Positions 276 to 22,509 of a stretch of 39,025 nt of DNA are shown here, piece after piece. Position 1 is the stretch's first letter; the number at the start of each line of letters is the position of its first letter. The DNA comes from Gracilibacteraceae bacterium (GTDB lineage: Bacteria > Bacillota > Desulfitobacteriia > Desulfitobacteriales > Syntrophobotulaceae): NCBI GenBank assembly GCA_031266805.1, contig JAISAH010000076.1, positions 1-39,025 of the forward strand. Direction: 5' to 3'. Under the pieces are notes generated by a model, which saw only the letters and a list, made by a program, of their open reading frames with translations, had not been told where the DNA came from and did not search any database. The translations under genes and the position numbers were made by a program.

Positions 276-773
276 ATGCTTTCGGAAGATGAACAACGTC
301 TGCTGCACGCCCTGACGGACGACTGCCGCCAGACGCCGGAAGCGCTCTCCGTTCAGACCGGATTGAGCGCCGAGGCTATCGCGGCCAGAATAGCCCAATG
401 GGAAAAAGAGCAGGTGATCGTTAAATATAAACCGATGATCAATTGGGAAAAGTTGGAAACAAATCTGGTGACGGCTTTCATCGACGTGAAGGTGCGCACC
501 CAGCGCGATCAGGGCTACGACCGCATCGCCTCCCGTTTTCAAAAATTCCCCGAGATTCGCTCGGTCTACCTGATGTCGGGGGACGCCGACCTGTGTCTTG
601 TGGTGGAAGGCACGAATATGTATGAAATAGCCCGTTTTGTTTCCGATAAGCTGTCGCCGCTGGAGGCGGTGGAAAATATATCCACTCGCTTTGTCCTGCG
701 CCGCTATAAAGACGACGGGATCGAATTCCACGGCAAGGAGGAGAGACTGGAGCGTCTCATCGTCACGCCATGA
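276..773 (+). CDS. Lrp/AsnC family transcriptional regulator
   Basis: This 165-residue protein has an N-terminal helix-turn-helix (about residues 1-55: LHALTDDCRQTPEALSVQTG, then LSAEAIAARI) and a C-terminal RAM/AsnC ligand-binding domain (about 70-150, including AFIDVKV, VYLMSGDADLCLVVEG and a final strand near STRFVLRRYK). Lrp-type proteins are small DNA-binding oligomers that respond to amino acids. The stop codon overlaps the start of the aminotransferase gene (ATGA at 770-773), so the two are translationally coupled. A likely role is control of that aminotransferase or of amino-acid metabolism. The ATG at 276 follows GAGAGGA at a suitable distance. Confidence 0.85.
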   Translation: MLSEDEQRLLHALTDDCRQTPEALSVQTGLSAEAIAARIAQWEKEQVIVKYKPMINWEKLETNLVTAFIDVKVRTQRDQGYDRIASRFQKFPEIRSVYLMSGDADLCLVVEGTNMYEIARFVSDKLSPLEAVENISTRFVLRRYKDDGIEFHGKEERLERLIVTP

Positions 774-1942
774 ATAAATATATCGCCCCTACGGCGCTGG
801 CCCTCCCGCCATCCGGCATCCGCCGTTTTTTCGACTTGGCCTCCAACATGGAAAACGTGATCTCGCTCGGCGTCGGCGAGCCTGATTTCGCCACTCCCTG
901 GGTCATGCGGGAGAGCGCTATATATTCTATTGAACAGGGACAGACCATGTATACCAGCAACGCCGGCATCAGCGAACTGCGGCGGGCGCTGGCGCGGGAC
1001 ATGCAAAAAAACGCGGGGCTTGACTATGACCCCGAGACGGAAATACTCGTGACCGTGGGCGCCAGCGAAGCGATCGATCTGGCTTTGCGCTCGCTGATTA
1101 CCCCCGGCGACGGCGTACTCATCCCCGATCCTTCCTTTGTCGCTTATGCCGGGGCGGCGGCTCTGGCCGGCGCGGAAGTGCGTTATGTGCCGCTGCGGGC
1201 GGAGCATGATTTTCGCCTGCAGGCGGACGATCTGCGCATGGCCTGGACGCCCAACTGCAAAGTACTCATCATTTCCTACCCGAACAATCCCACCGGCGCC
1301 GCGATGACCAGAGACGACCTCCTGCCCATCGCCCGTTTTGTCTCGGAAAACGACCTGCTCGTCGTCTCGGACGAGGTTTACGCTGATCTAAGCTACGGCG
1401 AGCCGCACACGGCTTTTGCCACGCTGCCCTACATGAAAAACCGCACGATCCATATCAACGGATTTTCCAAGTCTTATGCCATGACCGGCTGGCGCATCGG
1501 CTATGTGGCGGCGCATCCCGATTTTATCCGGGTCATGACGCGGATCCATCAATACACCATCATGTGCGCGCCGATCATGGCCCAACTGGCGGCGCTGGAG
1601 GGTCTGCAGCGCGGCGAGACCGCGAAAAGAGAGATGATCCTAGAGTATGACCGCCGCCGCCGGGTCATGGTGCACGGGTTTCGCGCCATGGGGCTCCAGT
1701 GCTTTGAGCCGCTGGGCGCTTTTTACGCGTTCCCGGAAATTTCGGCTACGGGCATGAATTCAGAGACTTTTGCCGAGACGCTGCTGTATGAGGAAAGAGT
1801 GGCCGTGGTGCCTGGAACGGCTTTCGGCCCCGGCGGCGAGGGGCATGTGCGTTGTTCCTACGCTTATTCCCAGGAGAAGATCCAGGAAGCGCTGGAGCGG
1901 ATCGAGCGGTTTGTACAAAAACACGTATCAGACAATCTTTGA
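770..1942 (+). CDS. Class I/II PLP-dependent aminotransferase (aspartate aminotransferase-like)
   Basis: The 390-residue length is normal for fold-type I aminotransferases. Visible marks are SLGVGEPDF near residue 35, YPNNPTG at 170-176 (substrate carboxylate and PLP-ring contacts), DEVY at 201-204 (PLP pyridine and phenol contacts), SKSYAMTGWR at 233-242 with Lys234 as the PLP Schiff-base lysine, and a late Arg in GHVRCSY expected to bind the alpha-carboxylate. The gene overlaps the upstream Lrp/AsnC gene by four bases. Bacillota often carry this pairing. The family includes aspartate, aromatic and methionine aminotransferases, and sequence alone does not fix the substrate. Confidence 0.88.
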   Translation: MNKYIAPTALALPPSGIRRFFDLASNMENVISLGVGEPDFATPWVMRESAIYSIEQGQTMYTSNAGISELRRALARDMQKNAGLDYDPETEILVTVGASEAIDLALRSLITPGDGVLIPDPSFVAYAGAAALAGAEVRYVPLRAEHDFRLQADDLRMAWTPNCKVLIISYPNNPTGAAMTRDDLLPIARFVSENDLLVVSDEVYADLSYGEPHTAFATLPYMKNRTIHINGFSKSYAMTGWRIGYVAAHPDFIRVMTRIHQYTIMCAPIMAQLAALEGLQRGETAKREMILEYDRRRRVMVHGFRAMGLQCFEPLGAFYAFPEISATGMNSETFAETLLYEERVAVVPGTAFGPGGEGHVRCSYAYSQEKIQEALERIERFVQKHVSDNL

Positions 1943-1953
1943 AGGTTGTGGAG

Positions 1954-4920
1954 ATGCCCATCAAGACCGGTGAACACGTCCGCATTGACGGAAAAGAATA
2001 CGAGATCATCGGTACGGCCGCTCACAGCGAGACGCTGGAGGAGATGGTGGTATACCGGGCGTTGCGTGGCGACCAGCTTTGGGTACGTCCAGCGGTGGTT
2101 TGGAGCGCGGCGGTTGAACCGGACAGACAGGCGGAACAGCCGAATCTCGCGTTCACTCCCGCTCTCGATATCCCGGAAACGTCGGCAGGCATTGATAATT
2201 ACAGCGCGCCGGCGGAAAAAATCGAACTGTTTATGTCGCTGTTCATGGGTCGCGGCGATGTTTTCGCCAAGCGCTGGGAGAACGCTAAGAAAGGATCTGC
2301 CGGATATGTCCCCGTCTGCCGCGGCGAATGGTCGTCCCTCTGTCCCAAATTGAGCGGCGGTAAAATAAAATGCGGCGAATGTCCCAAGCGGAATTTTGCG
2401 AAATATGATACGGCCGCGGTCCGGCTGCATTTGACGGGGCGGACGACCATCGGCGTATATCCGATGTTTCCCGATGAAACATGCCGGTTTCTGGCGTTTG
2501 ATTTTGACGGAAAAGGCACGGACTACAGCCCGGAAGATTTACGCCGCGATGTGGACGCCGTCCGCGTGGTTTGCGGCGAAAAAGGCATTAACCTGACGAC
2601 GGAGCGCTCCCGTTCCGGCAAAGGAATCCATTTATGGATATTTTTTGCTGAAAATATTCCCGCGATTACGGCGCGAAAGTTCGGCAGTTCTCTAATCACT
2701 TGCGCCATGAACAAGGATCATCAGCTGTCGTTCAAAACATACGATCGGATGATACCCGCGCAGGACACGCTGCCAAAGGGCGGATTCGGCGGACTGATCG
2801 CTCTTCCTCTGCAAAAAGCGCCGCGGGAACAGGGGAACAGCGTGTTTGTGGATGAAAATTTGGGGGTTTATCCCGACCAGTGGCACTACCTGTGCGGTAT
2901 AAAAAAATATACGCTGGAAGAAATAGAATCGTTTATCAAGCGGTTGTCCCGGTTCGGCGAACTTGGTGATTTGCGCAGCGACGCGGAGGATGAAAAACCG
3001 TGGGCGGTGAAAAAATCGGAGGCAAAGCTCACCGAGGCCGATTTTCCAAATATTATAAAAATAATACGCGCTAATGGATTGTATATAGACAAATCAGGAC
3101 TTTCAAGCCCCGCGCTCAACGCGCTGAAGCGTCTGGCGGCCTTCCGCAATCCTGAATTTTACAAGGCCCAAGCTATGCGGCTTTCTACGTTTGACAAGCC
3201 AAGGATAATTTGCTGCGCCGATGAAACCGAGCGGTATTTATGCCTGCCGCGCGGCTTGGAAGGCGATGCCCGCGAAATGTTGGAAAATAACGGAGTCCGG
3301 GCATATTTCCTTGATGAAACCAATAGCGGACGCGGTATTGACGTCCTGTTCCGCGGCGAGCTGCGCGGTGAGCAGCAGGCGGCGGCGGACGCGCTTTTGG
3401 CGCATAACAGCGGCATTTTATCCGCGGCGACCGCCTTTGGCAAAACCGTTGTCGGAGCGCGTTTAATAGCGGAACGTAGGGTGAATACGCTGGTTTTGGT
3501 CCACCGGACAAACTTGTTATCTCAGTGGAGAGACCGGTTGCGCGAGTTTTTGCTAATTAATGAAGAACCGGTGACCGAACTGACCCCTAAAGGGCGTAAG
3601 CGCCGGAAAACTGTGATCGGCCAAATTGGAGGCGGCAAAAATAATCCCAGCGGCATTATTGACGTCGCGGTCATGCAGTCTTTGGCGTCCGGCGGCGAGG
3701 TCAGGGAAATCGTTAAAGATTACGGCATGGTCATTGCGGACGAGTGTCATCATGTGTCGGCTTTCAGCTTTGAACAGATTTTGAAGACCGTGAACGCGAA
3801 ATATGTTTATGGGCTGACCGCGACGCCAACCCGTCAAGACGGTCATCATCCTATCATCTATATGCAGTGTGGGAAAATTTGTTATCGCGTGGACGCGAAG
3901 AAAGAGGCGGCGGCGCGTCCCTTTGAGCATTTTGTGATCCCGCGCTTTACGCGGTTTCAAAAACCGGCGCGCCAAGATGAAAACGAGTGGTCGATTACTG
4001 ATATTTATAATGACATTCAAAACGATGAGCTTCGCAACGATTTAATAGTGCAGGACGTCGTATCCGCCGCAGAGCAGGGAAGGAACCCTGTTATCCTTAC
4101 CGGGCGCACCGATCATGTGAAACATTTGGCGGCGCGGCTCGCCCAAAGCGTGAAAAACGTGATAGCCTTGACCGGCGGCGGAACGCGAAAGAAAAACAGG
4201 GAAAACTTACAGGCGGTCGCCGATATTCCTAAAAATGAACCGTTCGTTCTCGTGGCCACCGGAAAATATGTCGGCGAAGGTTTTGACATGCCACGTCTGG
4301 ACACGCTTTTTCTGGCCATGCCTATATCGTGGAAAGGAACGCTCCAGCAGTATGCCGGGCGGCTGCACCGTTTGTACGACGGCAAAAAAGAGGTTCAGGT
4401 CTACGATTATGTGGACGTTCATGTAGCCATGCTGGAGAAAATGTATCAGAAGCGTCTGCGGGGCTATGCTTCCATAGGCTACAAGGCGAAAGGAATGCCG
4501 TGGCCGCTGGAAGAAGTCCATTCTATTTTCGACAGTCATACCTTCTTCCCTGTCTATTCCGCCGATGTTTTGGCGGCGGGCAGAGAAGCGCTGATTGTTA
4601 GTCCGTTTATGACCAGACAGCGAGTGTTGTCTGCGCTGAACTATCTGACCGCGGCCAAGGCAAAAGTTACGGTGATCACAAAGCCGCCGGAAAGCTGCCC
4701 GGAAAAAGACCGGGTGAAAATCACGGAGTGTATGGAATTGCTGAGGCGTCACGGCGTCACCGTAAAAACCAAAGACCGCATCCATCAGAAATTTGCGATC
4801 ATGGATCAGCGGGTCGTGTGGTATGGCAGCATCAATCTTCTCAGTTACGGCGCGTCGGAAGAAAGCGTTATGCGGATCGAAAACGTGGATATAGCGGGGG
4901 AATTATTACGAAGCGTTTAA
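1954..4920 (+). CDS. DUF1653-like / primase-like (TOTE-type AEP) / SF2 helicase / PLD fusion protein
   Basis: From the ATG at 1954 this is a 988-residue protein. An in-frame extension reaches back to 1852 inside the aminotransferase gene, but AAGG at 1942-1945 favours 1954. Order of parts: a DUF1653-like segment (1-60, with AAHSETLEEMVVYRAL); a Cys cluster (122, 130, 140, 143); an archaeo-eukaryotic primase-like domain with FLAFDFDGK (DFD at 182-184) and SRSGKGIHLWIFF (His226); an SF2 helicase with TAFGKT (493-498), DECHH (596-600), GLTATPTR (620-627) and QYAGRLHR (800-807); and a C-terminal phospholipase D-like domain with HQKFAIMD from 944 and GSIN (958-961). The primase-helicase arrangement matches proteins grouped as TOTE conflict systems. 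The PLD domain suggests nuclease activity. A role against foreign nucleic acid is inference. Confidence 0.85.
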   Translation: MPIKTGEHVRIDGKEYEIIGTAAHSETLEEMVVYRALRGDQLWVRPAVVWSAAVEPDRQAEQPNLAFTPALDIPETSAGIDNYSAPAEKIELFMSLFMGRGDVFAKRWENAKKGSAGYVPVCRGEWSSLCPKLSGGKIKCGECPKRNFAKYDTAAVRLHLTGRTTIGVYPMFPDETCRFLAFDFDGKGTDYSPEDLRRDVDAVRVVCGEKGINLTTERSRSGKGIHLWIFFAENIPAITARKFGSSLITCAMNKDHQLSFKTYDRMIPAQDTLPKGGFGGLIALPLQKAPREQGNSVFVDENLGVYPDQWHYLCGIKKYTLEEIESFIKRLSRFGELGDLRSDAEDEKPWAVKKSEAKLTEADFPNIIKIIRANGLYIDKSGLSSPALNALKRLAAFRNPEFYKAQAMRLSTFDKPRIICCADETERYLCLPRGLEGDAREMLENNGVRAYFLDETNSGRGIDVLFRGELRGEQQAAADALLAHNSGILSAATAFGKTVVGARLIAERRVNTLVLVHRTNLLSQWRDRLREFLLINEEPVTELTPKGRKRRKTVIGQIGGGKNNPSGIIDVAVMQSLASGGEVREIVKDYGMVIADECHHVSAFSFEQILKTVNAKYVYGLTATPTRQDGHHPIIYMQCGKICYRVDAKKEAAARPFEHFVIPRFTRFQKPARQDENEWSITDIYNDIQNDELRNDLIVQDVVSAAEQGRNPVILTGRTDHVKHLAARLAQSVKNVIALTGGGTRKKNRENLQAVADIPKNEPFVLVATGKYVGEGFDMPRLDTLFLAMPISWKGTLQQYAGRLHRLYDGKKEVQVYDYVDVHVAMLEKMYQKRLRGYASIGYKAKGMPWPLEEVHSIFDSHTFFPVYSADVLAAGREALIVSPFMTRQRVLSALNYLTAAKAKVTVITKPPESCPEKDRVKITECMELLRRHGVTVKTKDRIHQKFAIMDQRVVWYGSINLLSYGASEESVMRIENVDIAGELLRSV

Positions 4921-5008
4921 GGGAACTGTCTCACAAAGAAGCGAAACAAATGGGCGGCAGTTAATGCGAGAACTGAGAAAGCGGCTCGCAAGCAGAGGGG
5001 GCGCGGTG

Positions 5009-6448
5009 ATGAACGCTAAAATCCGGAAACTGCTCCGCGAGGGTGAGGGGCTGACGATTGAATACAAACGCTGTCACAACAAACTGTCACAGTCGGTTTA
5101 CGAGACTGTTTGCTCGTTCTCAAACCGTTATGGCGGCGATATGCTGCTTGGCGTTGAAAATGACGGCACAGTCACAGGCGTTGAACCTGCGGCGGCAGGT
5201 CGACTGAAAAAGGACTTTGCCAACGCGCTTAACAATCCGCAGATATTCAATCCCACGCTGTTTGTTGAGCTTGAGGAAATTGAGTTTGACGGCAAAATCA
5301 TTTTGTACTGCCATGTGCCGTTTACCTCACAGCTTATGATGTACAACAGCAAGATTTTTGACCGCAACGCTGACGGCGACTTTGATGTCACTCACAGTCC
5401 GGACTTGATATGGCAGATTGGCGCACGCAAAAAAGGCGCTTCAACAGAGGATAAAATCTATCCGTTCATAACGGAGGGAGATTTGCTTTTGGGCGACCTA
5501 ATGCCGAAAGTTCGGATAATGGCTACGACAAGGCTAAAAGACCACCCGTGGAAAAGTATGCCCGATATGGACATTCTGAAAAGCGCGGGGCTTTATCAGG
5601 TTGACCGGGAATCCGGGAAACCCGGCTTTACGCTTGCGGCAATTTTGTTATTCGGACATGAGGGTATTATTCGCTCGGTCCTGCCGGGATACGTCACGGA
5701 CTGTATCTTGCGCCGCGACGACCTTGACCGCTATGACGATCGTCTGCGCGTGTCTTGCAATTTGATTGAGGCTTTTGACAAGATCATGGAGTTCATATCT
5801 AAACATACGCTTGACAGGTTTTATCTTGAAAGCGTCCTGTCTGTGAGTATACGGTCAAAGATCGCTCGTGAGCTTGTGAGCAATATCCTCTCACACCGCG
5901 AATTTACAAGCACCGTTCCGGCAAAAGTTGTCATTGAGCGTGATCGCATTGTCACCGAAAACTGGTGCCTGCCGAAACTGCCCGGTAAACTCGATCCAGA
6001 GACATTTACGCCGCAACCCAAAAATCCGCTGATTGCTAATTTCTTTGTAAATATCGGCTACGCCGACACGCTCGGCTCCGGCGTCCGCAATCTGTATAAG
6101 TACACGAAAATCTATACTAACGGCGCCGAGCCGGAATTTATCGAGGGCGATATCTTCAAGGCCATCGTGCCGTTATCGCTCATCGGAGCGGGCGATAACG
6201 CGCAAACGAGCGATAAACTTAAAATGAGCGATAAAACGAGCGATAACGTGAGCGATAAAAGCGCTCACGACAAGCTGCTTGAGTATCTGCGGGGGAACGG
6301 AGAAGTGACGGCGTCAGAAGCGGCGGTCATCATTGGCCGCGCGACTTCAACGGCGCGGCGGCTGCTGACACGGCTTGTTGACGAAGGGGTCGCCGTTTCC
6401 ACCGGGGCAAACCGGAATAGAAAATACAAGGCTAGTAGTAGGCGGTAA
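5009..6448 (+). CDS. AlbA_2 (Schlafen AAA_4-like) protein with HATPase_c_4-like region and winged helix
   Basis: The ATG at 5009 has AGAGGGG upstream and gives 479 residues; an in-frame ATG at 4964 has a weaker site. The N-terminus carries the AlbA_2 signature (TIEYKR, ETVCSFSNRYGGDMLLGVEN, DGTVTGVEP). The middle, with ARELVSNILSHREF and DTLGSGVRNLYKY, resembles the RecG-like HATPase_c_4 region of this family. A low-complexity linker built on SDK repeats follows (6208-6259), then a winged helix with YLRGNGEVTASEAA and TSTARRLLTRL. Such proteins are usually annotated as putative DNA-binding or transcriptional regulators, and many lie in defence or mobile regions. The gene starts 88 bases after the helicase gene and ends eight bases before the membrane protein gene, suggesting one transcription unit. 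Confidence 0.82.
   Translation: MNAKIRKLLREGEGLTIEYKRCHNKLSQSVYETVCSFSNRYGGDMLLGVENDGTVTGVEPAAAGRLKKDFANALNNPQIFNPTLFVELEEIEFDGKIILYCHVPFTSQLMMYNSKIFDRNADGDFDVTHSPDLIWQIGARKKGASTEDKIYPFITEGDLLLGDLMPKVRIMATTRLKDHPWKSMPDMDILKSAGLYQVDRESGKPGFTLAAILLFGHEGIIRSVLPGYVTDCILRRDDLDRYDDRLRVSCNLIEAFDKIMEFISKHTLDRFYLESVLSVSIRSKIARELVSNILSHREFTSTVPAKVVIERDRIVTENWCLPKLPGKLDPETFTPQPKNPLIANFFVNIGYADTLGSGVRNLYKYTKIYTNGAEPEFIEGDIFKAIVPLSLIGAGDNAQTSDKLKMSDKTSDNVSDKSAHDKLLEYLRGNGEVTASEAAVIIGRATSTARRLLTRLVDEGVAVSTGANRNRKYKASSRR
6208..6259 (+). repeat. Short GAGCGATAA repeats in the AlbA_2 gene linker
   Basis: Four copies of GAGCGATAA (from 6208, 6226, 6238 and 6250) sit in frame with spacings of 18, 12 and 12 bases and encode SDK or SDN units. 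They join the ATPase-like region to the winged helix. The number of units could change by slippage without breaking the frame. Confidence 0.75.
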
Positions 6449-6456
6449 ATTAGGGC

Positions 6457-6990
6457 ATGGATCTGCGCGAAACGGAAAAAGAGGCGCTGCAGAAGGCCGT
6501 CAATAAAAACGTAAAATTCGCCCAATACGCCGGTATTTCCCTGCAAGGCGGCTTTGTGCGGCTGATGCTGTATTGGGCGATGAACAGTTTTTTCTATTTG
6601 CGGACGTTTTCTTTTCTGATGCAGAGGGACCAAACGCTGTATTTTATCCTATATGTAGCGGTGGCCTATATCGCCCCCATCGGGCTCGTCTATCTGGAGG
6701 CTTCGACCTGCCGCAAGGCCAACCGCGCGTATCATGTCTGTAAGCGAAAGCTGGAAGCCGTCGTCGAGCAGGAGATAAAAGAAAGGCACCGGCTGCTGCT
6801 AGAACATTCGCAGGAGGAAAGCGCGCTGATCAAACTGATGGCGGCGGAATACTGGAAAGACCCGGACGGGCGCGACTGGACGAAACTGGAAGCGGCCTGC
6901 GCCGACTTTGTCCGCGAGTGGACCGGCAAAGGCGTGAACGAAATGCGGGTCTGCGAAATTTTGCGGAAGTATATGAGTGACGCTTACTGA
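6457..6990 (+). CDS. Unknown small membrane protein with a charged cytoplasmic-type tail
   Basis: I do not recognise a family for this 177-residue protein. It has an amphipathic N-terminus, a first hydrophobic stretch around residues 33-52 (FVRLMLYWAMNSFFYLRTF) and a stronger membrane segment around 61-83 (TLYFILYVAVAYIAPIGLVY). The rest is charged and helical, with a likely coiled region near 90-120 (KRKLEAVVEQEIKERHRLLL). It starts eight bases after the AlbA_2 gene with only a weak AGGG site, so translational coupling is likely. Its last seven bases overlap the convergent branching-enzyme gene. Position suggests it belongs to the upstream conflict-type genes, possibly as a membrane component, but nothing in the sequence proves a function. 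Confidence 0.7.
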   Translation: MDLRETEKEALQKAVNKNVKFAQYAGISLQGGFVRLMLYWAMNSFFYLRTFSFLMQRDQTLYFILYVAVAYIAPIGLVYLEASTCRKANRAYHVCKRKLEAVVEQEIKERHRLLLEHSQEESALIKLMAAEYWKDPDGRDWTKLEAACADFVREWTGKGVNEMRVCEILRKYMSDAY

Positions 6991-8957
6991 CGTAAAACCA
7001 CGGCCGCCCGCCGGTCTATGTTCAGCGGCAGTGACCGCCCATTTGCCGGGAATGGCGGATAAGCGTCATGCCGGCCCCCGAAAAACCGCTCGTTAGTATG
7101 CAGATATTCGGCCCATTCACCCCCCGCGGGCAGCGCCGCCGGCAAGTCCGGGACGATACGGGCGTCTCGGGTCGGGTGAAAATTAAAAACAAATAACAGT
7201 TTTTTCTTTGTAAAAACCAAGGTTTTGGCGGCTTCATCCAAAAGCAGCAAAACCGGCGCTTCCTCCGTCAAACGGCAGTCGGCGGCGAGGGAAAGCATGG
7301 CTTTGTCAAAATTTTCCAATTCCTGGTAGCGCAACTCTGGATCCGCGGCCAAACTCCATTGCCGGCGCGCGTAGTGATAACTGCCGCCGTTGCCGGGTCT
7401 GGGGAAATCTATCCATTCCGGGTGACCGAATTCGTTGCCCATAAAATTCAAATAAGCGTCGCCGCAAACGCAGGTCAGCAAACGGATCATCTTATGCAGC
7501 GCCATCGCCCGCTCGATTATCTGGCTGGAAGCGTCTTTGCGCATATGCGTGTACATTTCCCGGTCGGCCATGCGGAATATCAAAGTTTTATCGCCGACCA
7601 GCGCCTGATCGTGCGACTCGCAGTAAGCGACCACCTTTTCCCGCGGCCGTCGCTGCGTCTGCTCATGCCAAAGGGCGCCGATATCCCAATCCTCATCGTT
7701 TTTGTCCTTCAAGGCGCGGATCCAAAAGTCCGGCAGCCCCATGCCGAGGCGGTAATCAAAGCCGATGCCGTCGTTTTCCGGCGGCAGGCACATGCCGGGC
7801 ATGCCGCTCATGTCCTCAGCGATCAGGATGGAGCGGGGACTTACCTCTTTGCAGAGGGTGGCGGCCAGCTGCAGATAGGTCACGGCGTCCGTGTCGGTAT
7901 TCAGGGAAAAATATTTCCGATAATTGTCGAAATTGACGCCCAGCCCGTGATCGTGATAGAGCATCGACGTAACGCCGTCAAAACGGAACCCGTCAAAATG
8001 AAACTCGTCCAGCCAGTATTTCAGATTGGACAGCAGAAAATGCAGCACTTCGGGTTTGGCGTAATTGAAAAGCCTCGTCCCCCATTGCGGGTGGATCCCG
8101 GCGGCGCCTTTATGAAAAAACTGCCAGACCGTGCCGTCGAAGCGGGCCGGCCCTTCGATCTCGTTGGTGGCGGCGTGCGAGTGGACTAGGTCGAGCAGGA
8201 CGGCGATCCCCATGCTGTGCGCCGTGTTGATCAGGTTTTTCAGATCTTCGGGCGTGCCGAAACGGGAGGACGGGGCGAAAAAATTCGTCACCTGGTAGCC
8301 GAAAGAGGCGTAGTACGGGTGCTCCATCACGGCCATCAGCTGCACGGCGTTGTATCCGAGCCGCCGCGCCCGCAGCAGGACCAGAGCGGTGAATTCGGCG
8401 TAAGTGGCGACGCGCGGCTCCTCGCCGGACATGCCGACGTGACATTCATAGATGAAGAGCGGCGAGGGCGCGGGGCGAAAATCGCTGTCCGTCCACGGGA
8501 AAGCGGTCTCCGGCTGCCAGATCTGGGCGTCAAAGGAAGGGGCGCCGCTCTGCTGCACGACGCGCCGGCTGTAAAGCGGCAGGCGCTCCAAAGTCTCCCG
8601 TTCGGTGATCAGGAGCAGGCGCGCTTTGGAGCCGTGGGGCAAAGGGCCGGGCGCCCGCAGTTCCCAATTGCCGTGCCCGATATAAGACAGCGGGTGGCGG
8701 CGGCGATCCCAGTCGTTAAAATCGCCGAAGAGGAATAAAGCGCGGGCGCCCGGCGCCCATTCGCGGTAGACCCAGCCGTCCGCCTCCCGGTGGAAACCGA
8801 AATAAAGGTAGCCGTTGGCGTATTCCGCCAGACTTTTTTGGCCGCCGCCCAGCAAGTTGGACAGGGCGCGCCGGTATTGCCGCCGCCGCAGTTCCAGATC
8901 GGATTTATAGGGGGTCAGCCACGGGTCAATTTCCCAAATGCGCTCCGGCTCGTTCAT
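6984..8957 (-). CDS. glgB: 1,4-alpha-glucan branching enzyme, eukaryote-like GH13_8 type
   Basis: The 657-residue protein has an N-terminal CBM48-type domain (about 50-140, with YREWAPGARALFLFGDFNDW), a GH13 barrel and a C-terminal beta domain. Catalytic residues are visible: nucleophile Asp327 in GFRFDGVTSM, acid/base Glu381 in LIAEDMSG, and the third Asp in CESHDQALVGDK (449). The stretch SMLYHDHGLGVNF and the DAVTYLQLA motif resemble plant and animal branching enzymes (GH13_8) more than E. coli GlgB. The enzyme makes alpha-1,6 branches in glycogen. No other glycogen gene is present. The start overlaps the upstream chromate transporter stop by four bases (8954-8957), so it is probably translated from that message. 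Confidence 0.92.
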   Translation of the reverse strand: MNEPERIWEIDPWLTPYKSDLELRRRQYRRALSNLLGGGQKSLAEYANGYLYFGFHREADGWVYREWAPGARALFLFGDFNDWDRRRHPLSYIGHGNWELRAPGPLPHGSKARLLLITERETLERLPLYSRRVVQQSGAPSFDAQIWQPETAFPWTDSDFRPAPSPLFIYECHVGMSGEEPRVATYAEFTALVLLRARRLGYNAVQLMAVMEHPYYASFGYQVTNFFAPSSRFGTPEDLKNLINTAHSMGIAVLLDLVHSHAATNEIEGPARFDGTVWQFFHKGAAGIHPQWGTRLFNYAKPEVLHFLLSNLKYWLDEFHFDGFRFDGVTSMLYHDHGLGVNFDNYRKYFSLNTDTDAVTYLQLAATLCKEVSPRSILIAEDMSGMPGMCLPPENDGIGFDYRLGMGLPDFWIRALKDKNDEDWDIGALWHEQTQRRPREKVVAYCESHDQALVGDKTLIFRMADREMYTHMRKDASSQIIERAMALHKMIRLLTCVCGDAYLNFMGNEFGHPEWIDFPRPGNGGSYHYARRQWSLAADPELRYQELENFDKAMLSLAADCRLTEEAPVLLLLDEAAKTLVFTKKKLLFVFNFHPTRDARIVPDLPAALPAGGEWAEYLHTNERFFGGRHDAYPPFPANGRSLPLNIDRRAAVVLRQ

Positions 8958-9511
8958 GCGGTTTTTTTGCGGTTGAACAGGGCCATGCCTAGGAGCATGG
9001 AGGTCACTACGAGAAAAGCCGGATGCAGCCAGGAGAGAAAAAGCATGATCGCGAGGGCGGTTAGGCCGAAAGCCCAGGTGGTTTTATCCCGCAATGATTT
9101 TTTCCCCATATCGAAAGCGGTTTGCGCCAGCAAAACGACCACCACGGGACGCACGCCCTGCAGCATGGCCTGCAGTTGGGGCGAATCGGCAAAGCCGAGG
9201 ATAATGCTGCCGAGAAAAATCATGATGAGCGCGGTGGGAACGAGTGTGGCGGTGGTGGCGACAAAGGCGCCGAGCCAGCCGGCGACGCGGTACCCCACGA
9301 TGCCGGACATTTTCGTGCCGATAGGCGCGGGCAAAGAATTGGCGATGGCGAGTACGTCCGCGAATTCATCGTCGCTCATCCATTTGTATTTTTTCACGAT
9401 CTCCGCCTGCATCAGCGGGATCATGGCCGGGCCGCCGCCGTAACTGAAATTGCTGGCCCGGAAAAAAGCGAGGAACAGACTTCGGAGGGCGGCTGAGTCA
9501 TGTTTTGCCAT
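8954..9511 (-). CDS. Chromate transporter family subunit (half-size ChrA), second copy
   Basis: This 185-residue protein is a single CHR domain. It shows FRASNFSYGGGPAMIPLMQ near residue 20, then LPAPIGTKMSG and about five to six hydrophobic segments. Single-domain CHR proteins are commonly encoded as adjacent pairs that together replace a two-domain ChrA, with the two halves in opposite membrane topology. The partner lies eight bases upstream at 9520-10056. An AGGAGG site precedes the ATG. Family members export chromate, but several have no proven substrate, so the name is a family label. The gene is coupled to glgB downstream. Confidence 0.88.
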   Translation of the reverse strand: MAKHDSAALRSLFLAFFRASNFSYGGGPAMIPLMQAEIVKKYKWMSDDEFADVLAIANSLPAPIGTKMSGIVGYRVAGWLGAFVATTATLVPTALIMIFLGSIILGFADSPQLQAMLQGVRPVVVVLLAQTAFDMGKKSLRDKTTWAFGLTALAIMLFLSWLHPAFLVVTSMLLGMALFNRKKTA

Positions 9512-9519
9512 AAATCCTC

Positions 9520-10056
9520 CTAGAAAAGAATAAAACCGGCGCCCATGCCTAAAACCACGAGCAGAGCCGGGTGGATCCTGCGCAGATAGAGCAGGGCGGC
9601 GGCCGCGAGGGCGATGGGTATGGTCAGCAGATCGCGCGGCGCGGCGACGGCGAAAGCGCTTTGCCCCATATCGATGGCTACATAAAGCAGCAGGGCCGTG
9701 ATGACGGGGCGTACGCCTTTGAGGGCCGCCTGCAGCTTAGGGGAATGGGCGTATTTTTTCAGCAAAGCGCCGAGAAAAATAAGCAGCAAAATCGTAGGCA
9801 GGATGGTAGCCGTGACCGCGACGAAAGCGCCGGGCCAGGAAGCGATTTTGAATCCGATATATGAAGCCATTTTTGTGGCGACAGGCCCCGGCAGCGCGTT
9901 GGCCGCGGCGATAGCGTCGGAAAACTGCGCCGAATCCAGCCAGGCGTAACGTTCGCATTCCGCCTGAATGAGAGGGATGACCGCCGGGCCCCCGCCAAAA
10001 CCGAGGTTGCTGGCGCGGAGAAAACCGATAAATATATCCCATAAATCGTTCCACAT
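9520..10056 (-). CDS. Chromate transporter family subunit (half-size ChrA), first copy
   Basis: This 178-residue CHR domain protein carries FLRASNLGFGGGPAVIPLIQ near the N-terminus and LPGPVATKMASYIGFK, closely matching its downstream neighbour. The C-terminal half is hydrophobic (ITALLLYVAIDMG, LLTIPIALAAAALLYL, PALLVVLGMGAGF). It leads a minus-strand operon with the second half-transporter and glgB. An AAGGAGGA site lies at 10069-10076, about 12 bases before the ATG, which is longer than usual, but no better in-frame start is visible. A promoter is recognisable just upstream. Confidence 0.88.
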   Translation of the reverse strand: MWNDLWDIFIGFLRASNLGFGGGPAVIPLIQAECERYAWLDSAQFSDAIAAANALPGPVATKMASYIGFKIASWPGAFVAVTATILPTILLLIFLGALLKKYAHSPKLQAALKGVRPVITALLLYVAIDMGQSAFAVAAPRDLLTIPIALAAAALLYLRRIHPALLVVLGMGAGFILF

Positions 10057-11050: not shown

Positions 11051-11070
11051 AAAAATATTTGGAGAGACGG

Positions 11071-12087
11071 ATGAAAGCTTTAGTTTACGCGGGAAAACAG
11101 CGCGCCGAACTGCGCGACGCGGAAAAACCACTTTGCCGGAACGGGGAGATCCTTCTCCGGATCACATACTGCGGTATTTGCGGCTCTGATATCGGCATTT
11201 ATAACGGCGCGCATCCCAGGGCCAAAGCGCCGCTGATTTTCGGCCATGAATTTATCGGCGCCGCGCTTGCCGGCTCCGGCGACGGCTCGATCCGCGAGGG
11301 CGACCGGGTCGCGGTCTATCCGCTATTGTCCTGCGGCTATTGTCTTTCCTGCCGCACCGGCAGCGAGCACGTCTGTTCCACGCTCCGGATGATCGGCATC
11401 GACCAAGACGGGGGAATGGCTGAATTCGCGGCGGTCGAGGAATCCAAGCTGGTTCTCGTGCCGTCCGGGGTTTCCGACAAGGCGGCGGCTTTGATCGAAC
11501 CGCTGGCCGTTATCATCCGCTCTCTGCACCAAAGCGGGGTCAAAGCCTTGGACAAAGCGGCCATAATCGGCGCGGGCCCTATCGGCGTTCTCACCGGGAT
11601 CCTCCTGCGAAAAATGGGTCTGCAAGACGTGCTGATTTCCGATATCGATCAGGAGCGTTTGCGACTGGCAGCCGGCTTCGGTCTGGAGACGGCCGCCGCG
11701 GGAGACGCTTTCCTGAAAAAAGCCCAGGATATCAGCGGCGGCGAGGGCGTCGACGTTCTGTTCGAATGCAGCGGCGCTCCCGCTGCCGCCCTGCAAATGA
11801 GCCGAGTAGCTAGGATCAGCGGCACGATCTGCATGACGGCGGTGCATAAAGCGCCGCATGAAGTGGATTTACGCGATATCAATTTCCGGGAGCAGCGCAT
11901 TATCGGCACGCGGGTCTATACAAAGGAGGAATTTCGTCAGGCCGCCGCCTATGCGCCGGTCGTCCAAGCGGAGCTGGAAAGCCTCGCCACCCACATTTTA
12001 CCATTATCCGCCTCCGGGGGCGTCTTTGATCTCATCGGCTCGCCGGCGTCCGGAGCGATGAAAGTATTGATCGACTGCCGGGCGTGA
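11071..12087 (+). CDS. Zinc-dependent MDR dehydrogenase (sorbitol/threonine dehydrogenase-like)
   Basis: From the ATG at 11071, preceded by GGAGAG, this is a 338-residue medium-chain dehydrogenase. It has the catalytic-zinc motif CGICGSD with the following GHEF, a structural-zinc set CGYCLSCRTGSEHVC, and an NAD-binding fold with GAGPIGVLTG. Related enzymes oxidise secondary hydroxyls of polyols, L-threonine or sugar acids such as L-idonate and galactonate. It is the first gene of the cluster and is divergent from the FCD regulator, so it probably performs an early oxidation of the substrate. The exact substrate is not visible. Confidence 0.88.
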   Translation: MKALVYAGKQRAELRDAEKPLCRNGEILLRITYCGICGSDIGIYNGAHPRAKAPLIFGHEFIGAALAGSGDGSIREGDRVAVYPLLSCGYCLSCRTGSEHVCSTLRMIGIDQDGGMAEFAAVEESKLVLVPSGVSDKAAALIEPLAVIIRSLHQSGVKALDKAAIIGAGPIGVLTGILLRKMGLQDVLISDIDQERLRLAAGFGLETAAAGDAFLKKAQDISGGEGVDVLFECSGAPAAALQMSRVARISGTICMTAVHKAPHEVDLRDINFREQRIIGTRVYTKEEFRQAAAYAPVVQAELESLATHILPLSASGGVFDLIGSPASGAMKVLIDCRA

Positions 12088-12142
12088 GATTTTTAGGGGC
12101 GCGTGATTTTACCCTTATTACTGAGGAAAGGCGGGAGCGACT

Positions 12143-12790
12143 GTGAGCGCGAGAACGCTGGAACGCATTTTGGAGCATCGCATAATATCGATCATCAGAG
12201 GCGTGTCCGCCCGGGATTTGCCCGCTCTGGCCGGGGCTTTGCGTGACGGCGGCATCCGCTGCCTGGAGATCGCTTTCGATCACTCCGGCGCTGAGGACGC
12301 CGCGGCCGTCTGCCGTAAAATCGAGACTCTGTCGCGGATCTTCGGGGATGAAATGCTGATCGGCGCCGGCACGGCGCTGACGACGGAGGAGGCGCGCATG
12401 GCGGCGGCGGCCGGCGCGAAATTCATCATTTCCCCCAATGTGGATCCCGCGGTGATCCGGGCGGCCAAAGAAGCGGGCCTGGCGTCCGTTCCCGGCGCCA
12501 TGACTCCCTCGGAAGCGCTGACGGCCTTTCAATGCGGCGCGGATATCATCAAGCTGTTTCCCGCGGATATATTAGGCCCGGCGTACATCCGCGCCTTTCG
12601 CGGTCCCCTGCCCCATATTCCCGTGATTGCGGTCGGGGGGATAACTCCCCGTAATATCAAATCGTTTTTTGCCGCCGGGGCTGTCGGGGCCGGCGTGGGC
12701 GGCGGCCTGGCCAATCAGGCCCTCGTGGATTCCGGGGCGTATGAATCTATATCAGATCTGGCGCGGCAGTACACGGAAAGCGTCAAATAA
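12143..12790 (+). CDS. 2-keto-3-deoxy-6-phospho-sugar acid aldolase (Eda/DgoA family)
   Basis: This 215-residue protein starts with GTG behind GGGAG. It shows the KDPG/KHG aldolase fold, with GAGTALTTEEA, ISPNVDP, VPGAMTPSEA and the Schiff-base lysine in IIKLFPAD, then AVGGITPRNI near the phosphate site. The family cleaves KDPG, KDPGal or 4-hydroxy-2-oxoglutarate to pyruvate and an aldehyde. A DgoK-like kinase two genes downstream makes 2-dehydro-3-deoxy-6-phosphogalactonate or a close analogue the likely substrate, which would give pyruvate and glyceraldehyde 3-phosphate. This is inference from context. Confidence 0.88.
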   Translation: MSARTLERILEHRIISIIRGVSARDLPALAGALRDGGIRCLEIAFDHSGAEDAAAVCRKIETLSRIFGDEMLIGAGTALTTEEARMAAAAGAKFIISPNVDPAVIRAAKEAGLASVPGAMTPSEALTAFQCGADIIKLFPADILGPAYIRAFRGPLPHIPVIAVGGITPRNIKSFFAAGAVGAGVGGGLANQALVDSGAYESISDLARQYTESVK

Positions 12791-12814
12791 TCGCAATATT
12801 AGGAGGAATATCTG

Positions 12815-13576
12815 GTGCGTGATCTTTTTGACATAACAGAAAAGAAAGCCGTCGTCACCGGCGGCGCCGCGGGATTAGGGCGGGGGATCGCCGAAGCTCT
12901 GGCGGAGTTCGGCGCGCGGGTCGTCGTCGTCGATAATTCCGCCCGGCTTGACGCGGCCGCGGCGGAAATGCGGGAGCGCGGGCTGCCGGTTTCCGGCCTG
13001 CGGGCGGATCTGAGCGATACGGAGCGGCTGGAGTCCGTTTTTAAAGCGGCGCTTGAGCCGTTGGACGGCGCTTTGGATATTTTGGTCAATTGCGCCGGGA
13101 TCCAGCGCCGGCATAAATGCGACGAGTTTCCCCTGAGCGACTGGAACGACGTTCTCACGGTCAACCTCACTTCCGTATTCCGGCTCTGCCAACTGGCCGG
13201 CCGGATCATGCTCAGGCGGGGTTCGGGCAAGATCATCAATATTTCCTCCATGCTGGCGTTTTTTGGCGGTTTCACCGTGCCGGCCTACGCCGCCAGCAAA
13301 GGCGGGGTTTCGCAGCTGACAAAGGCTTTATCCAATGAATGGGCCGGCCGCGGCGTCAATGTCAACGCGATCGCCCCCGGCTACATGGATACGGCCCTCA
13401 ATGTCAATATTGTCAGCGATCCTGAGCGCAGCGCGGAAATCCTCGGGCGTATCCCGGCCGGCCGCTGGGGAACGCCGGAAGATCTGAAAGGCGTCGCCGT
13501 TTTTCTGGCCTCGGCGGCCAGCGATTATCTGAGCGGGGCGGTCATACCGGTCGACGGCGGTTATCTGGGCAAATAA
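12815..13576 (+). CDS. SDR family oxidoreductase (KduD/gluconate dehydrogenase-like)
   Basis: The 253-residue protein is a classical short-chain dehydrogenase. It has TGGAAGLGRG for NAD(P) binding, NCAG, the catalytic Ser in INISSML, YAASK (catalytic Tyr and Lys), and a C-terminal SGAVIPVDGGY. It resembles enzymes that interconvert keto and hydroxy groups on sugar acids, such as KduD and gluconate 5-dehydrogenase. The GTG start at 12815 follows a strong AGGAGG at 12801-12806. It lies between the aldolase and kinase genes of the same operon. Confidence 0.87.
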   Translation: MRDLFDITEKKAVVTGGAAGLGRGIAEALAEFGARVVVVDNSARLDAAAAEMRERGLPVSGLRADLSDTERLESVFKAALEPLDGALDILVNCAGIQRRHKCDEFPLSDWNDVLTVNLTSVFRLCQLAGRIMLRRGSGKIINISSMLAFFGGFTVPAYAASKGGVSQLTKALSNEWAGRGVNVNAIAPGYMDTALNVNIVSDPERSAEILGRIPAGRWGTPEDLKGVAVFLASAASDYLSGAVIPVDGGYLGK

Positions 13577-13594
13577 AGGCGGGAATTGGAAAAA

Positions 13595-14599
13595 ATGATG
13601 CGAATAACCATTGATTGCGGAACCACGAATACACGGGCTATCCTGTGGGAGAGCGGCGGCCGGATGGCAGGCGAGCAGAGCAGGCCTGTCGGCGTGCGGG
13701 ATACGGCCACGGAAGGCAGTAACGCCAAGCTCAAACAGGCGGTGAAGAGCTGTTTGGACAGTTTGCTGCTGGAAAGCGGCGCGGGCTATTCCGCGATCTC
13801 GTCCATTATCGCCAGCGGTATGATCAGTTCTAACGTCGGACTGGCGGAAATTCCCCATTTGACGGCTCCGGCCGGCCTGAGGGAGCTGGCGCGGGGCATC
13901 GCCCGCAAAGAACTGCCCGACATTTGCCCTCTGCCCATTTACTTCATCCCTGGGATCAAAAATTCCGCGGAAAAAATCACGCTCGCCAATTATTTGGATA
14001 TGGACGTCATGCGCGGCGAGGAAACCGAGAGCGTCGCGTTAATCCGGCGGCTGCATAAAGGAAAACCCATGCTGCTGATCCTGCCCGGCTCGCACACGAA
14101 GTTCGTCGGGGTCGACGAGGAAGGCCGCATCACCGGCTGCATCACCACGCTCGCCGGGGAACTTCTGGCCGCCATATCCCGCCATACCGTCATCGCCGAC
14201 GCGGTGGAGCGGCGTCTGGCCGATCCGGGATCGTACAACAGGCGGATGGCGCTGGAAGGTTATGAAAGCGCCTTGAAACACGGACTGGGGCGCGCGTGTT
14301 TTTCCGCCCGCATACTCAGTAATTTTACGGATCATACGCCGCCTGACATCGCCAGTTTTATTCTGGGGGCCGTGCTGGCCGGCGATATTACGGCGGTCAA
14401 GGCATCTTCGCTTCTGGCGGCTCATGAGCGCGCCGCGGTCGTCCTGACCGGGCGGGAACCGCTGCGGCAAGCCCTGTACGATATCCTGTCCGCTGACGAC
14501 TATTTCCGTGACATACATGTCTATACCCCTGAAACCGACGTTCCTTTATCCGCCGAAGGCGCTTTGCTCATTGCCGGCGGCAGCGAGTACGATCTTTAG
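13595..14599 (+). CDS. dgoK: 2-dehydro-3-deoxygalactonokinase (DgoK family)
   Basis: The 334-residue protein opens with ITIDCGTTNTRAILW, the phosphate-1 loop of this kinase family, and carries LPGSHTKFV and a C-terminal AEGALLIAGG. DgoK phosphorylates 2-dehydro-3-deoxygalactonate at O6 using ATP. The ATG at 13595 (or 13598) puts the loop where family members have it. A TTG at 13586 with AAGG upstream is an alternative start. With the Eda/DgoA-type aldolase two genes upstream it forms the lower half of a De Ley-Doudoroff route. Confidence 0.85.
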   Translation: MMRITIDCGTTNTRAILWESGGRMAGEQSRPVGVRDTATEGSNAKLKQAVKSCLDSLLLESGAGYSAISSIIASGMISSNVGLAEIPHLTAPAGLRELARGIARKELPDICPLPIYFIPGIKNSAEKITLANYLDMDVMRGEETESVALIRRLHKGKPMLLILPGSHTKFVGVDEEGRITGCITTLAGELLAAISRHTVIADAVERRLADPGSYNRRMALEGYESALKHGLGRACFSARILSNFTDHTPPDIASFILGAVLAGDITAVKASSLLAAHERAAVVLTGREPLRQALYDILSADDYFRDIHVYTPETDVPLSAEGALLIAGGSEYDL

Positions 14600-14621
14600 C
14601 AGCGAAGAAAGGAGGGAAAAA

Positions 14622-15587
14622 ATGGCAGTCACTGTCGTCGTCACTGATTACGAGTACGCGGATATCGCCTGGGAACGGCGGATCGTCGAGGAGGCCGGAT
14701 TCCGTCTCGTCGCCTGCCAGCTCAGGCGCGAGGAAGAGCTGATCCCCGCGGTCGCCGACGCGGACGGCTTGATCATTCAGTACGCGGATGTGAACGCTAA
14801 CGTGATCGCCAGTCTGAGCAGATGTAAAATCATGGTGCGTTACGGCATCGGCTACGACAATATCGACGTCGCCGCAGCCACCCGCCGCGGTATTCTCGTC
14901 AGCAACGTGCCGGATTACGGTATCGACGAGGTCTCCAACCACGCCATCGCCATGATCCTGAGTCTGGCGCGGAAGCTGCCGCTGATCCGGGAAAAACTGC
15001 GGAGCGGCGTGTGGGGATATGAGCCCGCCGCGCCGGTCACGCGCTTTGAGGGGGCGACGGTGGGTTTATTGGGATTGGGCCGGATCGCCCGCTCTGTGGC
15101 CCGCAAGCTTTCCGGCTTCGGGGTCCGCCTGATTGCCCACGACCCTTTTGTTCAGGAAAACGCCGCCTCCGGCGTCGAACTGGTATCTTTTGCGACCCTT
15201 TGCCGGGAAAGCGATTACCTCTCGCTGCACTGTCCGCTCACCGGCGAAACCCGCCACAAGCTGAACCGGGAGGCTTTTCGCCTGATGAAGCCCACCGCTG
15301 TGCTAATCAACACGGCGCGGGGCGGGCTGGTCTGCCAGGAAGACTTGATCGACGCTTTGCGGCGGGGCGCCCTCGCGGGGGCCGGCGTGGACGTATATGA
15401 AAAAGAGCCTTTGGAGCGGGACAGCCCTTTGCTCCGGATGGAAAACGTGATCGCGACGCCGCATTTCGCCTGGTACAGCGAACAAGCTATCACGTCTTTG
15501 CAGCGAAAAGCGGCGGAGGAAGCGGTGCGGGTCCTGAGCGGCCAGACTCAGCGGTATCCGTGCAACCCCGAGTTGCTCCAGGCTTGA
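14622..15587 (+). CDS. D-isomer specific 2-hydroxyacid dehydrogenase, CtBP-like
   Basis: The ATG at 14622 follows AAAGGAGGG and gives 321 residues. The frame is open further upstream, but only inside dgoK. Visible marks are RYGIGYDNIDV, a Rossmann motif GLLGLGRIARSVA, and the catalytic triad: Arg in INTARGG, Glu in VDVYEKEPL and His in ATPHFAWYS. Members reduce 2-keto acids or oxidise 2-hydroxy acids with NAD(H). The substrate here may be a keto acid or hydroxy acid intermediate of the pathway. Confidence 0.87.
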   Translation: MAVTVVVTDYEYADIAWERRIVEEAGFRLVACQLRREEELIPAVADADGLIIQYADVNANVIASLSRCKIMVRYGIGYDNIDVAAATRRGILVSNVPDYGIDEVSNHAIAMILSLARKLPLIREKLRSGVWGYEPAAPVTRFEGATVGLLGLGRIARSVARKLSGFGVRLIAHDPFVQENAASGVELVSFATLCRESDYLSLHCPLTGETRHKLNREAFRLMKPTAVLINTARGGLVCQEDLIDALRRGALAGAGVDVYEKEPLERDSPLLRMENVIATPHFAWYSEQAITSLQRKAAEEAVRVLSGQTQRYPCNPELLQA

Positions 15588-15642
15588 CAACAACATTCCG
15601 AAAGACGTCATCCATACCAGACCAGAAAGCGAGGAGCGCGCC

Positions 15643-16578
15643 ATGAAGCAAATCCTGCGGGGAGTGTATCCGGCTTTGCCTACTCCTTTTGACCGGGGCG
15701 AGGAGGTCGTTTTGTCCGACCTGAAAAACATGGTCGATTTTGCCGTCAAATGCGGTGTTCAGGGCATTGTGCTCAACGAGTTTTTCAGCGAGTTCTATCT
15801 GTTTACCGATAAAGAGCGGCGGGAAACGGTGGAAACCGTCTGTGCGCACGCTCAGGGGAAAATCCCCGTGATCGTCGGCGTATCCGCCCCCACGCCCATG
15901 CGCGCCGTCTACTGGGCGGAACACGCTCAGGCCGCTGGCGCCGCCGCTGTGCTTTGCGCCGGCCCTTATTTCGTCCCTTACCTTTGGCCCGACTTGGTAG
16001 ACCGCGGTTTTCGCGTCATGGATCAAAAACTGAGCATCCCGGTCATCGCTCAAAACGCTCCGCCGGATACGCTGACCGCCAATCTGAACGCCGGCCTGAG
16101 CCGGGAGGGCGTCAAATTTCTCCTGCGGGAATTTGAACGCGTCCTGTATTACAGAGAGGACGCCAACGGCGCTCAGGCGGAAATCAGCAAATTTCTCGCC
16201 GCCGTGGAAGATCTGCCGCCCGGCGCCTGCCTGGGTCTGTTTACCGGCGCTGTCAACGGTTTCGATCTCCATCACGATTACCTGAGAGGCGCCGCCGGTT
16301 TTATGCCGCCCCTGCATATGGCCGATTACCGGGAAAAGCAGTGGCGGCTTTTGGAAGAGGGCGGGCATGACCGTTCGCTGGCCATGCAGCTGGCGCTTTC
16401 GCCCCTTATCTGCTTTGAGCGGCTTTACCAAACGGAGGTATGCCTGGACGTGCTGAAACGCCGGAGGGTGATCGAAAACACCGGCCGCCGCCGGGCGAAT
16501 ATGAATGTTTATGGCGCGACCGCCCGCGAAGAATTCCAGCGGATCTACGACTATTTGACCGCCGGCGAAATGGTATAA
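15643..16578 (+). CDS. DHDPS/NAL-family protein lacking the Schiff-base lysine
   Basis: This 311-residue protein has the DapA-type barrel: RGVYPALPTPF at the N-terminus, IVLNEFFSEFYLFT in the phosphate-loop position, AGPYF, and IAQNAPP where catalytic members have YNxP. At the usual GxKE Schiff-base site the sequence reads YYREDAN, so an arginine appears to replace the lysine. The tyrosine of YNxP is also replaced by glutamine. It may be a non-catalytic partner of the paralogue directly downstream or may use different chemistry. It lies 55 bases after the dehydrogenase gene. Confidence 0.82.
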   Translation: MKQILRGVYPALPTPFDRGEEVVLSDLKNMVDFAVKCGVQGIVLNEFFSEFYLFTDKERRETVETVCAHAQGKIPVIVGVSAPTPMRAVYWAEHAQAAGAAAVLCAGPYFVPYLWPDLVDRGFRVMDQKLSIPVIAQNAPPDTLTANLNAGLSREGVKFLLREFERVLYYREDANGAQAEISKFLAAVEDLPPGACLGLFTGAVNGFDLHHDYLRGAAGFMPPLHMADYREKQWRLLEEGGHDRSLAMQLALSPLICFERLYQTEVCLDVLKRRRVIENTGRRRANMNVYGATAREEFQRIYDYLTAGEMV

Positions 16579-16592
16579 AGGAGATCGCTCTT

Positions 16593-17534: not shown

Positions 17535-17584
17535 CGGAGAAAGGAGCGTGGGACTCTTAAAATTGCTGCAACGTGGATATGAGT

Positions 17585-17608
17585 GTCATTCCGGCTTTAT
17601 GCCGGAAT
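17585..17608. repeat. Dispersed palindrome, copy 1
   Basis: ATTCCGGC, loop TTTAT and GCCGGAAT form a perfect 8-base stem (17588-17608) preceded by GTC. It lies in the 148-base gap before the TRAP binding-protein gene. The reverse complement matches the core of the copy at 33814-33840. Confidence 0.75.
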
Positions 17609-17620
17609 TCATGTCCCCCA

Positions 17621-17644
17621 GTCATTCCGGTTTTATGCCGGAAT
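17621..17644. repeat. Dispersed palindrome, copy 2
   Basis: GTCATTCCGG, a TTTTATG loop and CCGGAAT repeat the first copy 36 bases downstream, with a C-to-T change shortening the stem to seven bases. The tandem pair lies just upstream of the TRAP genes and could affect message stability. Confidence 0.72.
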
Positions 17645-17682
17645 CCAAAAAACTATTTTTTCTATTATTGAGGAGGAAAATT

Positions 17683-18726: not shown

Positions 18727-18752
18727 ACAAGCGCTTATTGTGAGGGTATTGC

Positions 18753-19259: not shown

Positions 19260-19272
19260 GGGGAGTAAAAAA

Positions 19273-20553: not shown

Positions 20554-20592
20554 CCGGCGTTTACCGCGGCGAAAAACTGTCGAAAGGGGAGT

Positions 20593-21231: not shown

Positions 21232-21232
21232 T

Positions 21233-22504: not shown

Positions 22505-22509
22505 ATATC

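Follow-up and report, generated by a model that had tools for sequence, protein, structure and literature searches.

A single chain predicted to join a primase-polymerase, an XPB/UvsW-like motor and a PLD nuclease domain: a candidate stand-alone conflict enzyme in a Gracilibacteraceae bacterium

The window analysed here is the whole stretch of 39,025 nucleotides, which makes up one complete contig (39 kb) of the metagenome-type genome G000, an assembly of 152 contigs that is 95% complete. Three plus-strand open reading frames at short spacing, q1, q2 and q3, had been proposed from the sequence alone as a cassette, and these reading frames are real. They lie between two blocks of resident genes, as follows:

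276..1942, plus strand: resident block, Lrp/AsnC regulator and aminotransferase, genus-conserved
1954..4920, plus strand: q1, 988 aa, with the predicted order DUF1653, Zn cluster, AEP primase-polymerase, XPB/UvsW-like SF2 motor, PLD nuclease
1990..2130, plus strand: DUF1653 domain of q1, residues 13-59 (Pfam 4.4e-14), specific to one family clade
2215..2931, plus strand: AEP-TOTE primase-polymerase domain of q1, residues 88-326 (Pfam 1.9e-85), D183/D185/H226/D264 invariant
2317..2382, plus strand: C4 cysteine cluster 122/130/140/143 inside the AEP match, likely zinc-binding
3046..4422, plus strand: SF2 motor and XPB/UvsW-like accessory domain of q1, residues 365-823; Walker A, DECH, TATP and QxxGRxxR conserved
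4576..4905, plus strand: PLD nuclease domain of q1, residues 875-984 (Pfam 6.8e-11), one HKD motif at 944-961
5009..6448, plus strand: q2, AlbA_2 protein (ATPase-like middle, winged helix), a neighbour whose membership of a system is not supported
6457..6990, plus strand: q3, orphan predicted membrane protein of 177 aa, a neighbour whose membership of a system is not supported
6984..10056, minus strand: resident block, glgB-like gene and chromate-transporter pair, genus-conserved

The aminotransferase gene, which is conserved in the genus, ends 11 nt 5' of q1, and q3 overlaps the stop codon of glgB. The true start of q2 is probably the ATG at 5009, where its homologues begin, which gives a gap of 88 nt between q1 and q2. 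GC3 was 0.60 for q1 and 0.59 for q2, compared with 0.68-0.74 in ten resident genes. Both resident blocks are kept across the genus and were never seen joined in the relatives, whose contigs are short; positions 1943-6983 are therefore regarded as a variable stretch. By gene names judged by eye from the translations, ABC transporters come after the aminotransferase gene in G002 and other genes elsewhere, and after glgB there is either a peptidase-like gene, a set of ATP-synthase-like genes or a fragment resembling a transposase. An empty site joining both blocks was not found on the short contigs of the relatives. Promoters and terminators at the locus showed no excess over shuffled sequences, and no repeats resembling the ends of an element were found there.

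The domains proposed for the large protein (DUF1653, Cys cluster, primase, SF2 and PLD) were borne out by Pfam and by residue conservation. The SF2 part was matched by ResIII/DEAD over residues 469-627 and, slightly below the cut-off, by Helicase_C over 705-807. Across 34 full-length homologues of q1, the AEP residues D183, D185, H226 and D264 and the motor residues K497, T498, D596, E597, R803 and R806 are invariant. The same holds for D951 of the PLD motif, while H944, K946 and N961 are retained in 30, 31 and 33 of these proteins, respectively, and cysteines 122/130/140/143 in 33/34. No Pfam match to a target-recognition (SRA-like) domain was obtained in q1, where a diverged domain is possible.

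An AlphaFold model of q1, built with 34 sequences, had a pLDDT of 82. In a fold search with the whole model, in which the match list was filled by the motor, residues 84-334 matched the Marinitoga CRISPR-associated Prim-Pol (CAPP) (Z 26.3, 2.4 A, 211 residues), residues from about 365 to 836 matched XPB (Z about 24) and residues 365-645 matched UvsW (Z 21.7). The motor of SauUSI was matched at Z 18.3. In a single polypeptide, q1 unites an AEP primase-polymerase and an XPB/UvsW-like dsDNA motor, both intact, with a PLD domain that has one HKD motif. For five pairs of homologues the overall dN/dS was 0.06-0.18, and it was 0.04-0.24 when AEP, SF2 and PLD were taken separately, which shows purifying selection on each of the three enzymatic modules. 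The N-terminal part evolves faster than these modules, with a dN/dS of 0.17-0.46 in the three pairs that allowed it to be measured.

These data bear on the possibility that q1 is an accessory enzyme of DNA repair or replication restart, in which, by analogy to XPB-Bax1 and cellular PrimPols, the motor would remodel stalled or damaged DNA, the PLD domain would trim it and the PrimPol would reprime or fill gaps. XPB and UvsW, accessory domain included, are the nearest folds among the matches listed, the sequence matches of q1 include RadD and XPB, and purifying selection on q1 is strong. However, the gene is patchy, plasmid-borne and often broken, lacks a housekeeping partner and lies in defence-rich surroundings, so that repair is kept here as a possible but clearly secondary explanation. 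As a separate observation, the folds of motor and PrimPol fit repair enzymes equally well, which counts against a conflict reading.

In q2 the AlbA_2 domain scored 51.8 bits against a curated Pfam cut-off of 25.3, in agreement with the earlier assignment, whereas the HATPase-like (HATPase_c_4) and winged-helix parts of that assignment fell just below their cut-offs. For q3, codon usage was that of a coding, resident-like gene (0.41 bits/codon). Of the two membrane segments proposed for it, one is clear (residues about 61-80) and the other, preceding it, is weaker. No Pfam or other family match to q3 could be identified, and searches of 121 relatives, 398 genomes of the phylum, plasmids and viral contigs detected no homologue. 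Its predicted fold was unreliable (pLDDT 51), and comparison with the PDB gave chance-level matches only.

The sequence-only reading had suggested recognition, control and effector roles for the three proteins, such that q1 would recognise or cut, q2 regulate and q3 act as membrane effector. Location on the same strand with short gaps is consistent with this, as is the similar departure of q1 and q2 from typical codon usage, but when linkage was checked the homologues of the three genes did not travel together. In a tblastn of q2 and q3 against the loci of q1 homologues, neither a close q2 homologue nor q3 was found, and only weak matches to other AlbA_2 proteins were obtained (L041, L059). 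The sister genome G004 has its q1 (74%) and q2 (72%) on separate contigs, C105 and C182, respectively; G003 and G001 possess q2 and match q1 only via the generic helicase, and G022 has q1 without q2. Close homologues of q2 stand alone, next to varied genes and with no constant partner, and q3 is an orphan with resident-like codon usage.

A few q1 homologues do adjoin AlbA_2 genes. With a q2-family profile, AlbA_2-type genes were found next to q1 homologues in L166 (same order and strand, 20 nt apart), L168, L040 and L059. In 33 genomes with the AEP family, 51 AlbA_2 genes were counted, two of which, besides that of the window, adjoin a q1 homologue. This is above chance, since by a rough estimate far below one such case is expected for 51 genes among about 100,000. 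The AlbA_2 proteins next to q1 homologues belong to other subfamilies and vary in orientation, and that of L166 reached just 49 bits with the q2 profile. Their adjacency is therefore read as clustering of accessory genes and not as a conserved unit. On this comparison of loci, q1 does not form a three-gene system together with q2 and q3, and a true cassette is considered very improbable.

The AEP family was present in 37/398 Bacillota genomes, and q1-like genes were identified on 98 plasmid records (E <= 1e-60), 43 of them conjugative. The constant core of the family is AEP plus SF2. DUF1653-bearing sequences form a single clade of nine with a support of 100, and Pfam confirmed the domain for L032, L036 and the window protein; in the remaining full-length members its place is taken by a short consensus that resembles a coiled coil. 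The PLD domain is missing from many relatives, including every plasmid copy examined, so cutting would not be universal in the family. This absence, together with the crude ORF calls and small control behind the enrichment reported below, is a further observation against a conflict reading. The tree of q1 does not track taxonomy: the window protein groups with copies from other families (L181 of G282 and L034 of a Family XIII MAG), apart from that of G004, which is of the same genus. The homologues of q1 have been transferred across families, and q1 moves as a single gene.

At least ten copies have internal deletions (L054, L056, L057, L058, L123, L126, L168, L173, L182, L190), and further copies of the family are remnants. 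Programmed deletion was considered and rejected; the endpoints differ in every case, and ordinary inactivation is therefore preferred. L173, at least, comes from a single-contig genome, which makes misassembly an unlikely cause there. Intact copies are under strong selection while loss is frequent, as would be expected of a gene that is costly and useful only under certain conditions.

Plasmid carriage raises the possibility that q1 is a helper of mobile elements in priming, maintenance or entry and that the chromosomal copies are left-overs. Recombinases and transposases adjoin the plasmid-borne q1-like genes, the E. coli copies lie beside AlpA/YfjI/Gp2-like island genes, and AEPs of the same superfamily are common in mobile elements (PMC5862659). 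On the other hand, the PLD form found in the window is mostly chromosomal, without replication or transfer genes nearby. No relative of q1, q2 or q3 was found in viral contigs, and the best matches of q1 in phage records span the generic helicase only. The helper role is therefore regarded as unlikely.

The surroundings of q1 homologues are enriched in toxin-antitoxin and other defence-type genes. Beside the PLD-form loci, 147 genes matched 158 PADLOC families (E <= 1e-20), against 32 families, mostly generic helicases and ATPases, for 128 genes from random stretches, a comparison limited by crude ORF calls, by the small size of the control and by the overlap of many PADLOC models on each gene. 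Linkage to defence genes, for which a count had been proposed, could thus be observed. Among the matches listed, AbiEi and the candidate families PDC-S01, PDC-S05 and HEC-01 led in PADLOC, and DUF4143 ATPases, AbiEi, PIN, RhuM, ParE, HicB, AlbA_2 and recombinases were found with Pfam. In about 9/17 annotated plasmid contexts, counted without a control, a toxin-antitoxin, Abi, restriction or CBASS gene lies within about 5 kb. No conserved partner of q1 emerged, as the largest other neighbour cluster spans 5/30 loci.

A degraded HEPN/MNT pair upstream had also been taken as a sign of a defence island. Bases 1-117 in frame 1 can be read by eye as an MNT-like tail, followed by a frameshifted HEPN-like stretch at 103-207 that stops at 207; since the contig begins at base 1, the MNT-like gene is cut by its edge. 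Neither peptide has a Pfam match, and the Lrp regulator and aminotransferase genes lie between this stub and q1. The remnant is too short and too distant to lend support. The idea of a conflict-related, mobile gene nevertheless gained support for q1 itself from plasmid carriage, patchiness and defence-rich neighbours.

The best explanation, to which as a whole a probability of about 0.5 is given, is that q1 is a stand-alone, horizontally mobile single-gene conflict enzyme that would, much like SauUSI, act on foreign or branched DNA, and that q2 and q3 lie next to it only incidentally, at a variable position flanked by the two resident blocks. The N-terminal module and the Zn cluster may help to place q1 on such DNA, and the SF2 motor would pump along the duplex or open it, as XPB and UvsW do. 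A PLD domain with a single HKD motif generally forms a site only together with a second copy. Because of this, and because SauUSI is likewise reported to be dimeric, q1 is probably a dimer, in which the PLD domains of two chains would pair to cut. The PrimPol may then act on the single strand exposed by the motor, by priming or fill-in, and the invader would be destroyed or mis-replicated. The outcome would be either that foreign DNA is destroyed or that DNA is repaired; the patchy distribution of the gene, its decay, its presence on plasmids and its context led us to favour conflict by about 2:1.

A more specific form of the conflict reading, single-gene defence, is doubtful. It would combine translocation on invader DNA, cutting by paired PLD domains and DNA or primer synthesis by the enzyme's own PrimPol, with targeting by a swappable N-terminal part (DUF1653 or coiled coil). 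If true, polymerase action within the attack would be a new principle of defence outside CRISPR adaptation and reverse-transcriptase systems. Apart from this, the 98 plasmid records and the 37/398 Bacillota genomes make helicase-fused Prim-Pols widespread on plasmids and accessory DNA, and the PLD-bearing form joins motor, nuclease and polymerase in one chain that is under strong selection, yet whose copies are often lost. A false lead is also removed, as AlbA_2 and membrane genes should not be taken as obligatory partners of q1. Literature searches on TOTE conflict and on PrimPol plus PLD defence found no paper on the PrimPol-SF2-PLD architecture, and in the literature searched no tested function of helicase-fused Prim-Pols was found.

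Among known systems, the helicase type CAPP_A consists of an AEP and a helicase and is said to be the commonest among non-CRISPR members (PMC8211822). It shares with q1 the order of AEP then helicase, the AEP fold (Z 26 to the Marinitoga CAPP) and the occurrence on mobile elements, whereas q1 adds PLD and DUF1653 and has no CRISPR-Cas beside its type of locus. The existence of helicase-type CAPPs, the very near AEP fold and a match to the PADLOC model of CAS-associated PrimPol at 1.5e-79 would fit a CRISPR-adaptation Prim-Pol whose CRISPR neighbours were lost or act in trans. However, no CRISPR-like array was detected in the window or in q1-type loci by a crude scan, and the only arrays seen adjoin L189 and L191, two distant relatives whose AEP is C-terminal. 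No cas match was present among the matches listed for neighbour families of q1-type loci. Of all explanations, a role in CRISPR adaptation is given the least credence.

TOTE is given as TPR, OB, TBP and Effector in the passage of PMC12458937 that cites Aravind et al. 2022. The proposed link of q1 to TOTE-type primases holds, as its AEP domain is Pfam AEP-TOTE (1.9e-85), but a TOTE system does not. A TBP-like protein gave 0 matches in the 95% complete genome of the window, with controls behaving as expected, and the genes from 276 to 10056 had no Pfam match to a TPR or OB/cold-shock partner, the upstream side being cut by the contig edge. Because the genome lacks TBP and the locus a TPR/OB gene, q1 is considered to bear the TOTE-named domain without being a TOTE system.

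SauUSI shares with q1 an SF2 motor and a PLD nuclease in one chain, with related motor folds. Differences are that q1 has a PrimPol, has no detected SRA-like domain and carries its PLD domain at the C-terminus, whereas that of SauUSI sits N-terminally. SauUSI is an ATP-dependent, modification-dependent endonuclease for which cutting by way of ATP-driven translocation and a dimer have been reported (PMC7913695). XPB(-Bax1), T4 UvsW and RadD resemble q1 in the fold of the motor from about residue 365 onwards, accessory domain included, but unlike q1 they are motors of repair, recombination or transcription without fused PrimPol and PLD. Taken together, q1 fits best among the non-CRISPR helicase-type Prim-Pols, as a variant that bears PLD and DUF1653.

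Internal deletions were recurrent among the homologues of the 988-residue protein with AEP-TOTE primase-polymerase, SF2 helicase and PLD nuclease domains (loci L054, L056, L057, L058, L123, L126, L168, L173, L182 and L190). The deletion endpoints differed in each of these 10 broken homologues and most deletions reached the helicase core; in L058 and L126 the reading frame was kept despite the deletion.

In the window, the following features were identified:
1-207, HEPN-like remnant with a frameshift, preceded by an MNT-like C-terminus that the contig edge truncates
6202-6260, short tandem-like repeat within the neighbouring AlbA_2 gene, encoding SDK-type units
11059-23030, sugar-acid use cluster

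For the MNT-like and HEPN-like peptides of 1-207, a Pfam search gave no match. The SDK-type repeat follows the ATPase-like part and precedes the winged helix, and DK repeats are present again in homologues of this AlbA_2 protein. The genome carries 11 AlbA_2 genes, an unusual expansion; there are 7 in a same-genus genome (G004) and 10 in G282, from another family. The sugar-acid cluster contains a dehydrogenase, a KDPG-type aldolase, a 2-keto-3-deoxygalactonokinase, a DHDPS-family gene and the TRAP transporter DctP/DctM.

On E. coli plasmids, PLD-less relatives (L196 and L219) were found within the gene order AlpA, YfjI and inovirus Gp2-like, surroundings resembling a satellite island. Two distant AEP-TOTE relatives, L191 (7353-8165) and L189, have a C-terminal AEP and adjoin CRISPR-like arrays, an array-adjacent position like that of the CRISPR-associated Prim-Pols (CAPPs).
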